A DNA stretch of 64,000 nt from Ramlibacter ginsenosidimutans (GTDB taxonomy: Bacteria > Pseudomonadota > Gammaproteobacteria > Burkholderiales > Burkholderiaceae_C). The DNA lies in assembly GCF_016654015.1 (NCBI RefSeq), contig NZ_JAEPWM010000011.1, positions 1-64,000 on the forward strand. The letters are read 5' to 3'. Shown here one piece after another: positions 33,760 through 39,169 of this stretch. The position numbers were made by a program, and so were the translations under genes. The notes beneath the pieces are model-generated. The model was not told where the DNA came from. It did no database searches and saw nothing but the letters and a program-made list of their open reading frames with translations. The stretch's first letter is position 1. Each line of letters opens with the position of its first letter.

Positions 33760-34689
33760 ATGGCAATCCGCAGCCCCTCGCTGGTGGAGCTGCATGCGTT
33801 CCTGGCCGTCGCGCGCAGCGGCAGTTTCCGCAAGGCGGCCGACCAGCTTCACGTCACCCAGGCGGCCGTGAGCCGCGCCGTCGCCCGGCTCGAGGAGGAA
33901 CTCGGGGTGGACGTACTGGCGCGCTCGGGGGCCGGCGTGCGGCTCACGCCGGCGGGCGAGGAGCTGCGCGCCCGCATCGAGAAGCCGGTCGCCGCGCTCG
34001 AGGAGGCGGCGCTGCACGTGCGGCGGCGTTCGGACCGCCAGCGCCTGCGGCTTTCCGTGGTGACGAGCCTCGGCAACCTGTGGTTGATGCCGCGGCTGGA
34101 GGACTTCCGCGCGCGGCATCCTGAGGTGGAGATCGAATTCCGCCAGTACCAGCGCGACGAGGACTTCCTGCGTGACGACGTGGACCTGTGGATCGCTCTG
34201 AAGCGCAAGCCGCGGCAGCAGTGGCCGCGGCAGGTGGCGGCGCAATACCTGGTGGGGCGCGAGATCGTCGCGGTGTCCACGCCGGCGCTGGCACGCGGGG
34301 CGGGGTCGGCCAGCGACGTGCTCGCGCGTCCGCTGCTGTACCACTCCAGCTACGCCGAGAACTGGGAACTGTGGGCCGCGGCTGCCGGCGGCGCGCTGCC
34401 GGCTCGCTGGCGCGGTACCGGCTTCGACCTGGTGATCAACCTGATCGACGCTGCGCGCGCCGGCATGGGCGTGGCGGTGGTGCAGAAGTGCATGGTGGAA
34501 GCGGACCTGGCCTCGGGCCGGCTGGTGGAGCCGGTGGCGGCCACGGCTTCGACCGGCCGCGGCTACTACCTGTGCCGCCGGCGGGCTCTGGGCGCGCATC
34601 CGGCGGCCGAGCGCTTCTCGGACTGGCTGCTCGCGCAGTCGGCGCTCAGCGAACCCGCATCCCCGGCTCGGCGCCGGGCCACGGGTTAA
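33760..34689 (+). CDS. LysR-family transcriptional regulator
   Basis: A 309-residue regulator with an N-terminal winged helix ([20 protein letters not shown]) and a periplasmic-binding-like effector domain. It is divergent from the Bug-amidohydrolase operon and is its likely regulator. The ATG at 33760 fits the usual LysR start (a few residues before [10 protein letters not shown]). Its last 44 bases overlap the 3' end of metG on the opposite strand. Confidence 0.92.
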
Positions 34690-36763
34690 GGACGTAGATC
34701 CCGCCCTTCGACTTCTCGTCGGCGTGGCTCGCGGCCAGCACCATGCCCTCGCTCACGCCGAACTTCATCTTGCGCGGCGCCAGGTTCGCCACCATGACGG
34801 TGAGCTTTCCCACGAGCTCCTCGGGCTTGTAAGCCGAAGCGATGCCGGAGAACACGTTGCGCGTGCGGCCCTCGCCCACGTCCAGCGTGAGCTGCAGCAG
34901 CTTGGTCGACCCCTCCACTGCCTTGCAGTCGACGATCTTCGCGATGCGCAGGTCGATCTTCGTGAAGTCGTCAATGCCGATCACGGGCGCAACAGCCTCG
35001 CCGCCCGGCGTCTCACCCCCTGCGGCCTCCGGTGAGGGCTGGGTTCCACTCCCTCCCCCCTTGGGGGAGGGCTGGGGTGGGGGCGCCCCGGCGCCAGCCT
35101 CGGCCGGCAGATCGAACAGCGCATCCACCTGCTTCATCTCCACGCGCTGCATCAGGTGCTTGTACGCGTTGACCTGGTGGCCGGCGCCCAGCGGCTTCGC
35201 GGCATTGCTCCAATCCAGCGGTTCGCAGTTGAGGAAGGCCTCGGCCTGGGCTGCCAGTTCCGGCAGCACGGGCTTGAGGCACGCCGTCAGCACCTTGAAC
35301 GACTCGATGCAGTGGCTGCACACCTGTGCCGCCTCGTTGCTCTTGCCTTCCTTCACCAGCTTCCACGGCGCCGCCGCGTCGAAGATGGCGTTCACCTCGT
35401 CGGCGGCGGCCATGATCTCGCGCAGCGCCTTGCCGTATTCGCGCTCCTCGTACAGTTCGCGCACCTTCTGCACCAGGGCCGGCGCATTCAGCGCGGCGAA
35501 GCCGCCGGAGCCCAGGAGCTTGCCACCCGGGATGAACTTCACCGCGCGGCTGGCGATGTTCACGTACTTGCCGATCAGGTCCGAGTTGACGCGCGCGACG
35601 AAGTCGTCGGGGTTGAAGTCGACGTCCTCCACCCGTCCATTGAGCTTCGCGGCGATGTAATAGCGCAGCCACTCGGGGTTCATGCCGAGCGACAGGTACT
35701 TCAGCGGGTCGATGCCGGTGCCGCGGCTCTTGGACATCTTCTCGCCGCTGACGGTGATGAAGCCGTGCACGTTCACCTGGTTGGGCGTCTTGCGGCCGCT
35801 GAACTTCAGCATCGCCGGCCAGAACAGGGTGTGGAAGTACACGATGTCCTTGCCGATGAAGTGGACCTGCTCCACCGACGGATCGGCGATGAACTGGTCG
35901 AAGGTCGCATCCGTGCGCGACCGCGGGTCCCAGTGGTTCTTCGCCTGGCCCTTGTCGAAGTGGTTCTTCAGGCTGGCGAGGTAGCCGACCGGCGCGTCCA
36001 GCCACACATAGAAGTACTTGCCGGGCGCGTCCGGGATCTCGATGCCGAAGTAGGGCGCGTCGCGGCTGATGTCCCAGTCGGCCATGCCAGCCTCGAACCA
36101 TTCGCCGGCCTTCTTCGCCATCTCGGGCTGCAGCTTGCCGTCCTGCGTCCACGCCTTGAGGAAGTCGACCACCTCGGGCTTGGAGAGCTGGAAGAAGAAA
36201 TGGTCCGAGCTGCGCAGCTCCGGCCGCGCACCGGTGAGCGTGGAGTAGGGCTCGATCAGCTGCGTGGGCGTGTAGACGCTGCTGCACACCTCGCAGGAGT
36301 CGCCGTACTGGTCCTTGGCGTGGCACACCGGGCACTCGCCCTTGATGTAGCGGTCCGGCAGGAACATGCCCTTCACCGGGTCGTAGAACTGCTCGATGGT
36401 GCGCGTCGTGATGAGGCCGTTGGCCTTGAGGCGCTGGTAGATGCCTTGCGCGAGCTCGGTGTTCTCCGGGCTGTCCGTGGAATGCCAGTTGTCAAAGCGG
36501 ATGTGGAAGCCGTCGAGGTACGGCTTGCGGCCGGCGGCGATCTCGCCCACGAAAGCCTGCGGCGTCTTGCCGGCCTTCTCGGCCGCGATCATGATGGGCG
36601 CGCCGTGCGCGTCGTCGGCGCCGACGAACTGCACCATGTTGCCGGCCATGCGCTGGTGGCGCACCCAGATGTCGGCCTGGATGTATTCCATGATGTGGCC
36701 GATGTGGAACTTGCCGTTGGCGTAGGGCAGGGCCGTGGTGACGAAGAGCTTGCGCTGGGGCAT
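34646..36763 (-). CDS. metG: Methionyl-tRNA synthetase
   Basis: A 705-residue class I aminoacyl-tRNA synthetase. The HIGH motif is at residues 20-23, the zinc knuckle CPVC...CEVC near residues 143-160, and KMSKS at 342-346. The C-terminal 110 residues form the tRNA-binding EMAP/Trbp111-type domain ([20 protein letters not shown]). Between the anticodon-binding domain and this tail lies a Pro/Gly/Ser-rich linker (about residues 560-585) that is encoded by a palindromic repeat at 35012-35083. It is divergent from mrp and overlaps the lysR 3' end by 44 bases. Confidence 0.97.
35012..35083. repeat. CTCACCCC/GGGGTGGGGG palindromic repeat inside metG
   Basis: An inverted element with an inner stem CCCTCCCC/GGGGAGGG (35051-35071) and outer CTCACCCC...GGGGTGGGGG arms. 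It shares the core (on the minus strand CCACCCCAGCCCTC then GGGAGGGAGTG) with the element at 38612-38721. It lies in frame in metG in a domain linker. Confidence 0.75.
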
Positions 36764-37959: not shown

Positions 37960-38511
37960 ATGCCAGACCGCCCCGGCATCGACGTCGCGGTGATCCTGCG
38001 CAAGCTGCCCACCTCCAGCCGCTGGCAGCCCTGGCGCTGGGAGCTCGAGGACGTGGTGCCCGGCGAGGGCATCGCGGGCGACGCTCCGCGCCTGCTGCAC
38101 CGCGACGCGCAGGGCGAGCGCTGGCTGCACCCGGGTTTGCGCGTCGAGCTGTTCCGCGACGAGGCCGAAGGCTATTACCTGAACGTCACGACGCCGGCGC
38201 CCGCGTGGTTCGTCCTGTGGCGCATGGAGGACACGGCGACCGTGGCGCAGGAGCCGATCCCGCGTCCGCTGATCGTGACCCTCAGCTACAACGAGGCCGG
38301 CCGCTGGCTCGATGCGCAGGAGACCGTCGAGCAGGTGCCGGCGCCGCCGCAAGTGGTGGAGTGGATGCGCCTGTTCGCCGAGGAGCACTACGTGCCCGAG
38401 CCGAAGAAGCGCAAGCGCCCGGAGAGTTTCCGCCGGCTGGAAGACCGCTTCGGGCAGCCCGCGTCGGTGACCACGGAAAAGAAGCGCGGAGGGGGTGAAG
38501 GCCATGAGTGA
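37960..38511 (+). CDS. DUF3305 family protein (formate dehydrogenase locus)
   Basis: A 183-residue protein matching DUF3305: MPDRPGIDVAVILRKLPTSS, SRWQPWRWELEDVVPG and TPAPAWFVLWRMED. The C-terminal third is basic and charged (PEPKKRKRPESFRRLEDRFG). The function is unknown, but it is regularly found next to DUF3306 and a polyferredoxin at betaproteobacterial formate dehydrogenase loci, so a role in enzyme maturation or electron transfer is likely. It overlaps the next gene by 8 bases. Confidence 0.85.
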   Translation: MPDRPGIDVAVILRKLPTSSRWQPWRWELEDVVPGEGIAGDAPRLLHRDAQGERWLHPGLRVELFRDEAEGYYLNVTTPAPAWFVLWRMEDTATVAQEPIPRPLIVTLSYNEAGRWLDAQETVEQVPAPPQVVEWMRLFAEEHYVPEPKKRKRPESFRRLEDRFGQPASVTTEKKRGGGEGHE

Positions 38512-39169
38512 GGGGTTCTTCAGCCGGTGGTCGCAGCGGAAAGTGGCGGTGCGCAAGGGCAAGGGGGCGGAGCCGGAGGCGGAATCGGCGAAGGAGCTGG
38601 ACCCGCCGATGCCCTCACCCCAGCCCTCTCCCGCAAGCGGGAGAGGGAGTGAAGAGCTCCTCACCGTCGAGGGCGAACTGCAGTCTCCCTCTCCCCCCCG
38701 GGGAGAGGGTGGGGGTGAGGGGGAGCCCCCGCCGCCTCCCACGCTCGAAGACGCCCAAGCCCTCACCCCCGCCTCCGACTTCACCCGCTTCGTCCGCCCC
38801 GACGTCGCGCCGGAGGTGAAGAACGCCGCTTTCAAGAAGCTGTTCAGCGACCCGCACTTCAATGTGATGGACCGGCTGGACGTCTACATCGACGACTACA
38901 ACAAGCCGGACCCGCTGCCGCCGGAGATGCTCAGGCAACTCGCCAGCGCGAAGTTCCTCGGCTTCTTCGCCAACGAAGAAGCGCCGGAGGGGGAGAATGT
39001 CCCCGCCGCCAGCGCAAGTCCGGATGCGCCGGCTGCCGAATCCGTGGCACAGTCCGGCACCCGGACCGCGCAAGCATTACCGCCGGCCCAAGACCATGCC
39101 GACCCTGATCTGCGACTGCAACAAGACGATGCCCCTGGACCCGAAGGCCCTGGGGCGGGCTCTGGATGA
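38504..39169 (+). CDS. DUF3306 family protein with repeat-encoded insert
   Basis: A 221-residue protein. It starts MSEGFFSRWSQRKVAVRKGK and later has DFTRFVRPDVAPEVKNAAFK and VMDRLDVYIDDYNKPD, the DUF3306 core. Residues about 37-75 (PQPSPASGRG ... GEGGGEG) are Pro/Gly/Ser-rich and come from a palindromic element at 38612-38721 inserted in frame. The last 25 codons overlap the start of the polyferredoxin gene. The function is unknown; its neighbours point to formate dehydrogenase assembly. Confidence 0.85.
   Translation: MSEGFFSRWSQRKVAVRKGKGAEPEAESAKELDPPMPSPQPSPASGRGSEELLTVEGELQSPSPPRGEGGGEGEPPPPPTLEDAQALTPASDFTRFVRPDVAPEVKNAAFKKLFSDPHFNVMDRLDVYIDDYNKPDPLPPEMLRQLASAKFLGFFANEEAPEGENVPAASASPDAPAAESVAQSGTRTAQALPPAQDHADPDLRLQQDDAPGPEGPGAGSG
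38612..38721. repeat. Composite palindromic repeat inside the DUF3306 gene
   Basis: The 110-base element has terminal inverted repeats CCCTCACCCC (38612-38621) and GGGGTGAGGG (38712-38721), and two inner hairpins, CCCTCTCCCGC/GCGGGAGAGGG-like at 38624-38647 and CCCTCTCCCC/GGGGAGAGGG at 38687-38709. It keeps the DUF3306 frame open. It shares its core with the element in metG. Confidence 0.85.

Follow-up and report, generated by a model that had tools for sequence, protein, structure and literature searches.

The triplex motif TM(ECO), earlier named PIT (Hoyne 2000, as cited in PMC4666352), is a short repeat with the order CCCTCTCCC-loop-GGGAGAGGG-loop-GGGTGAGGG (Holder 2015, PMC4666352). Its 23 copies in E. 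coli MG1655 are reported to be always intergenic, with five inverted pairs and no associated mobile elements (PMC4666352). A single strand of the motif is reported to form a triplex in vitro, without in vivo support (PMC4666352). GTAG and CGTC REPs are hairpins of 20–40 bp which also occur as dimers and include intragenic copies, uvrA being one of the genes concerned (PMC3733652). CGTC REPs seem, in addition, to be without a dedicated transposase, CGTC-1 has been equated with dRS3, and two Xanthomonas recB genes carry REPs at about one site (PMC3733652). In-frame REPs as such are already known from Rickettsia and others, the Rickettsia palindromic elements (RPE) being palindromic repeats which lie in frame in unrelated genes (PMC3733652, PMC10969869). 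These three papers, PMC4666352, PMC3733652 and PMC10969869, were the closest among the matches listed in a limited literature search. The triplex family itself is thus known, whereas that search yielded no description of its life within proteins or of the reuse of one linker by several repeat families.

The locus considered here lies in a window, by which is meant the whole stretch of 64,000 nucleotides of Ramlibacter ginsenosidimutans DNA that was analysed. The 110 bp at positions 38612–38721 consist of two ~38-nt repeat units, inverted relative to each other, and lie in frame in a DUF3306 gene on the plus strand (38504–39169; ORF; Pfam PF11748, E 1.6e-32). The pair occupies the N-terminal linker of the protein and is flanked by an N-terminal RWSQRK motif and a conserved PTLED block. 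In each unit the arm, CCCTCACCCC, is separated by two free bases from a 9-bp hairpin, CCCTCTCCC/GGGAGAGGG, which is followed by a short tail mostly starting AG. Unit A, which is T-type (38612–38655, plus strand), has its arm at 38612–38621, its stem at 38624–38632/38639–38647 and the tail AGTGAAGA. A spacer with no assigned strand (38656–38684), open in frame, separates it from the inverted Unit B, also T-type (38685–38721, minus strand), whose stem lies at 38687–38695/38701–38709 and whose arm, GGGGTGAGGG, lies at 38712–38721. The first-pass annotation had described a 110-base element with terminal inverted repeats, two inner hairpins and an open frame, and all of this stands: the boundaries are exactly 38612 and 38721, the terminal repeats CCCTCACCCC/GGGGTGAGGG are perfect within wider 21-nt arms that are 90% complementary, the hairpins span 38624–38647 and 38687–38709, and the frame is open across the insert with the translation PSPQPSPASGRGSE...SPSPPRGEGGGEG.

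A second gene of the window, metG (34646–36763, minus strand; ORF and Pfam), carries a single unit in frame at 35043–35083 on the minus strand, with its arm at 35074–35083 and its stem at 35051–35059/35063–35071. This unit, CCCCCACCCC...CCCTCCCCC, belongs to the C-type subtype and sits between the Pfam anticodon domain (residues 431–547) and the C-terminal tRNA-binding domain (605–687). The core that had been proposed as common to both elements, CACCCCAGCCCTC and GGGAGTG, was recovered, as were two in-frame copies within 4 kb; the metG copy is, however, one unit of a sister subtype and not a pair.

A low-complexity, GC-rich linker could come to resemble a repeat by chance, and the DUF3306 linker is indeed rich in Pro and Glu in a window of 68.6% GC. 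This explanation must be regarded as already refuted. With at most two mismatches, the unit-arm pattern occurs in the window at three places, two in the DUF3306 pair and one in metG, yet was absent from all of 100 window shuffles. Folded as single-stranded DNA, the 110-mer was better than its dinucleotide shuffles in 200 cases out of 200 (z -4.95). Nor is the repeat confined to these two genes: it is dispersed through its own genome (5.33 Mb, 26 contigs), where a pattern scan found 47 exact unit arms and a slightly wider pattern gave 48 matches against 0 for its reversed control. An Rfam scan of the window found a tRNA alone and no match for the repeat.

Judged by its sequence, the family is the intrastrand-triplex (PIT/TM) repeat of Hoyne and Holder and not a REP/RAYT family. 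The unit matches the TM(ECO) table sequence when read on the opposite strand, the hairpin CCCTCTCCC/GGGAGAGGG and the adjoining arm GGGTGAGGG both being present in the units at 38612–38721 (Holder 2015, PMC4666352). Like TM(ECO) in the published description, the repeat is dispersed and multi-copy in both orientations (24 forward, 24 reverse), and forms inverted pairs, no mobility genes having been found in the flanks (PMC4666352). It differs in its location, since all of the E. coli copies are reported as intergenic, a statement on that species and not a definition of the family, whereas here many copies are in frame within genes, those for MetG, PurL, ThrC, AroA and LipB among others (PMC4666352). 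C-type and CCTTC-type subfamilies with compensating third-strand changes also occur here, unlike TM(ECO) as described (PMC4666352). RPE share the in-frame palindromic habit, but have another sequence, a length of about 150 bp, ten families and another phylogenetic group as their host, and the passages on them mention no triplex arm (PMC10969869, PMC3733652).

The third-strand arm is compatible with the purine strand of the hairpin in mirror register, and arm and stem covary. Of the 47 exact arms, 31 have C at both arm position 4 and stem position 6, 15 have T at both and 1 is mixed (p 2e-11); across 69 places with at most two mismatches, arm position 7 and stem position 3 are C-C in 62, T-T in 5 and mixed in 2, one each way (p 3e-6). 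These figures count copies and not independent events, since the subtypes are families which may reflect as few as two or three changes. When mutual information was calculated for all arm-by-stem pairs, arm 4–stem 6 (0.73 bits) and arm 7–stem 3 (0.26 bits) stood above the next value (0.14). Both pairs fit the mirror register (sum 10) needed for antiparallel pairing of a third strand, and a direct-repeat register would not yield the covariation observed. By the rules for triads, the substitutions swap A.A-T triads for G.G-C triads and back. When up to three mismatches are allowed, pattern and control are poorly resolved (46 forward and 41 reverse matches against 34 and 33), and the covariation was therefore limited to rows with 0–2 mismatches. 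One inverted pair, L005, mixes a C-type with a T-type unit; in mixed-subtype pairs of this kind the arm thus follows its own hairpin and not the arm of its partner. The mirror-register covariation amounts to comparative evidence that the triplex geometry, or whatever reads it, is maintained.

Copy numbers vary widely. All were taken from the pattern scan and not from blastn, for which the 110-mer gave 43 matches and true copies are fewer because palindromes match on both strands. The reversed-pattern control for the slightly wider pattern was 0 in each of the 61 genomes searched, including the 36 further genomes of the genus, in which copies range from 0 to 76. At the level of the class, the repeat was found in 70 of 274 sampled genomes, with control matches in 2. 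In the 42 units of the own genome which start CCCCC, the arm is often immediately preceded by GGAGCG or GCGTG, position -1 being G in 40; these bases may be part of the unit or may reflect a target preference. A third subfamily, CCCCCATCCC-NN-CCTTCCCCC, is seen in L039, L048 and L137–L142, and in several of these loci it adjoins an inverted C-type unit.

The first-pass annotation had likened the element to a paired REP unit. Pairing, BIME-like arrangement and dispersal are all present, and the likeness to GTAG and CGTC REPs extends to hairpin size, dimers and intragenic copies; membership of the REPs does not follow, however, as no GTAG or CGTC tetranucleotide was found at the hairpin end in the units and the CCCTC string is absent from the main text of PMC3733652. 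A REP or REPIN family moved by a RAYT (Y1) transposase of the host would fit the inverted dimers, the hairpins and the size, and a REP-associated transposase gene had been thought worth seeking. The only Y1 gene found in the own genome (G000:C1:201725-202018; L026:1501-1794) is flanked by a different repeat, of the inverted AATTGGGGTCAGATTCC type, and no triplex units were found at its 3.3-kb locus in the unit scan, nor any cognate RAYT gene flanked by a triplex unit in that genome. Within the genus, Y1 genes occur in 36 of 37 genomes, including all eight with no triplex copies, although repeat number spans 0 to 76. Within the class, Y1 genes are commoner where the repeat is present (59 of 70 repeat-bearing genomes versus 127 of 204 repeat-free, Fisher p 6e-4). 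This association is real, and genome size or base composition might explain it. However, the genomes with a Y1 match do not include 11 of the 70 bearers, and one of these 11, G107, has 47 copies at 100% completeness. Strict dependence on a RAYT is unlikely and movement of the family by such an enzyme altogether improbable, while some help from a Y1 enzyme stays conceivable on the class-wide association.

The repeat lies in frame in many genes of its genome. A codon model trained on eight genes of the window was applied to both flanks of 64 units of the own genome. It gave 15 units, in 12 reading frames, with a strong coding signal to either side in a single open frame, the other 49 not being internal to a coding frame at the threshold used. 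DUF3306, which falls below the codon-score threshold on its short left side, is counted in addition to these 12 frames, and three more ORFs continue through a unit without passing both thresholds: an AMP-binding enzyme (L007), a CoA ligase (L012) and a pseudouridine synthase (L121). The unit-bearing genes encode, by match to a solved chain, AroA, UvrA, ThrC, PurL, LipB and an N-carbamoyl-amino-acid or allantoate amidohydrolase, and, by Pfam, an XdhA-like protein, hydantoinase A/B, an ABC exporter and a lipoyl-domain pyridine-nucleotide oxidoreductase, together with an ABC-ATPase/UPF0261 frame, MetG and DUF3306. Alignments of AroA, ThrC, PurL, LipB and the amidohydrolase to their solved homologues leave all or most of the unit peptide gapped or unaligned; in UvrA the region is poorly aligned. 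Four proteins, namely the XdhA-like and lipoyl proteins, MetG and the ABC exporter, carry the unit between Pfam domains. Conserved ancestral protein sequence was considered as a source of these stretches and set aside, the solved homologues of AroA, ThrC, PurL and LipB being wholly or mostly gapped at the unit.

Two of the host frames have peculiarities of their own. In L006:3-2855 an ABC ATPase and a UPF0261 protein form one frame of 951 residues with the unit at residue 500, so that the repeat may have bridged two genes. The LipB insert (L052:1194-1970) has three copies of a PPPGEGR-like stretch, as would result if a portion of the unit had been amplified in frame.

It had been suggested that the repeat is built to be readable in some frames. 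If selection had shaped the repeat so that its peptide is tolerated or useful, many in-frame copies would be expected, and the frames of the units are slightly more open than those of controls. The excess is small, however, at 5.4 open frames of six as against 4.9 for random stretches of the window and 5.0 for shuffled units, and of the six frames of the 110-mer 3 are open, no more than in its own shuffles (3.0) and fewer than in random 110-mers (4.0). Moreover, the ratio of internal to non-internal units given above places most copies outside coding frames at the threshold used, and the intragenic copies use all three forward frames as well as reverse frames, giving unrelated peptides in different genes. 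Since the frame differs between genes and openness is near random, the notion of a readable design fails and has very little left to recommend it; a permissive site is the better explanation. What recurs is the protein site.

The 110 bp are probably a dimer of the PIT/TM repeat, dispersed without a gene of its own, in which the in-frame state is the survivor of a filter and not a matter of design. Each unit combines its 9-bp C/G hairpin with a third-strand arm that matches the purine strand of the hairpin in mirror order. Copies would be written into new places by a process probably coupled to replication or repair, and not by a dedicated RAYT. Selection would then remove most insertions into genes, those which survive adding a low-complexity, in-frame peptide to a linker or loop; because such insertions would be the ones spared, the open frame in DUF3306 is what the filter would be expected to leave.

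Among the species of the genus, the presence of units is scattered. For metG, 60 of the 61 genomes matched and all 30 loci fetched were readable; the linker holds a unit in 15 of these 30, three of them decayed, the unusual linker of G002 being scored as none. For DUF3306, 38 of 61 genomes matched, and 30 loci were fetched with a query that contained the insert and may thus favour insert-bearing species; of the 29 readable linkers (G003 lacking same-frame anchors), 12 hold the triplex repeat, in decayed form in G022 and G001. For ThrC, 53 of 61 matched at the set cut-off, 30 loci were fetched and 27 placed on the tree, which omits G003, G014 and G026, G003 possibly holding a remnant. With linker states assigned by eye from the sequences in all three genes, the number of changes on the trees was close to that of shuffled states. 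Unit presence in metG requires 9 changes on the MetG tree with the linker columns removed (shuffled mean 10.3; 94 of 300 shuffles as low). The DUF3306 linker, scored in four states for 25 of the 29 (G017, G019 and G031 not being on the tree and G021 unclear), requires 11 (shuffled mean 11.2; 169 of 300 as low). ThrC requires 5 for its 5 bearers, the maximum, which 154 of 200 shuffles also reach. Unit presence therefore has little or no tree signal, and these parsimony counts do not separate gain from loss.

Recurrent gain or replacement of units looks to be the source of this scatter. Gain is favoured by sister species which carry different subtypes, as in three well-supported pairs for metG (G025 T and G022 C; G015 C and G013 T; G027 C and G011 T). 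It is favoured also by the ThrC loop, which in the sister G036 is short (TRSNDERVSF), as in the solved homologue 3v7n, and equally short in the sisters G022 and G033, and by the metG linker of L207, in which a T unit and a C unit stand in tandem. An odd stretch of 36 residues occupies the ThrC loop of G023, the sister of G005. Copies outside the linkers are more numerous where the linker is occupied (Mann–Whitney p 7e-4 for metG and 1e-3 for DUF3306), with exceptions such as G007, whose metG linker is empty in a genome of 64 triplex repeats.

A different history, in which each gene received one ancient insertion that was inherited vertically, with gene conversion among copies switching the subtype and many lineages losing the unit, would account for two features of the data. 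Frame and orientation are constant within a gene across the genus (metG 15 of 15, first DUF3306 unit 12 of 12, ThrC 5 of 5), and intact metG units are 83–100% alike, a range which leaves out the three decayed units and so favours high values, against 57–74% at four-fold sites of the same genes. That history would, however, have to place the five ThrC bearers at five separate points of the tree, let losses restore the old short loop of G036, produce the tandem of T and C units in L207, and leave the same linkers to other repeat families as well. We consider it unlikely, though not negligible. Recurrent gain meets a difficulty of its own, as constant frame and orientation per gene count against random insertion followed by a filter, because independent gains should vary. 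The constancy could come from a preferred target sequence, from a narrow structural filter or from inheritance with conversion. In Herminiimonas (L233) a degenerate unit lies in another frame of the metG linker. No target-site duplication, such as a MITE with terminal inverted repeats would leave, was evident by eye in ThrC or metG, and variable linker length blurs such a search in metG and DUF3306. The five ThrC loops are longer by 5–12 codons, less than the unit of ~44 nt, so that target bases seem to have been replaced.

The DUF3306 linker is used by three repeat families across the genus. Beyond the linkers with the triplex repeat, 3 of the 29 hold a CGTC-like repeat, 1 holds the TTCGACAGG repeat, 10 hold none and 1 is unclear (G021); G031 and G019 possibly contain a decayed CGTC-like repeat (2 of 29). 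The repeat GTCATTCCCGCG...GCGGGGATGAC, found in the linkers of G020, G032 and, in part, G034, is by its sequence presumably of the CGTC REP or dRS3 type. By pattern, CGTC-like copies number 30 in G020, 40 in G032 and 12 in G034, and the GTCATTCCCGCG repeat is very numerous in G015 (373), G025 (248) and G017 (146), the genome of the window having 1. G015 has an empty DUF3306 linker despite its 373 copies, and that of G025, with 248, holds the triplex repeat; taken with G007, these cases indicate that abundance alone does not decide occupancy. The TTCGACAGG repeat, as TTCGACAGGCTCAGCCCGAACG, lies in the DUF3306 linker of G004, which also has a relative of it in the ThrC loop; G004 has 86 TTCGACAGG copies, and every other of the 61 genomes at most 22. 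In the metG linker of Ramlibacter sp. BP03 (L218), the peptide PFDKLRTGQ is the translation of a TTCGACAAGCTCAGGACAGG string related to the repeat of G004.

It is possible, though the reading is tentative, that the metG and DUF3306 linkers and the ThrC loop are recurrent landing pads, into which several unrelated palindromic families, none with a known dedicated transposase, have been written repeatedly by a shared copying process tied to DNA structure. The families would be the triplex repeat, the CGTC-like REP and the TTCGACAGG repeat, and one might speculate that each insertion replaces target bases, with frame and orientation fixed. The process could conceivably lie in stalled forks, or in template switching on hairpins and triplexes, a suggestion we make with equal reserve. 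Were this true, bacterial linkers would be built in part from the resident repeats of each genome. These sites offer a natural set of insertions for studying the spread of transposase-less palindromic repeats and the origin of protein linkers. The genus lies near Ramlibacter/Caenimonas, since the metG linker peptides of Ramlibacter cellulosilyticus (L203), R. alkalitolerans (L204) and Caenimonas soli (L208) equal those of G011, G025 and G033, respectively.
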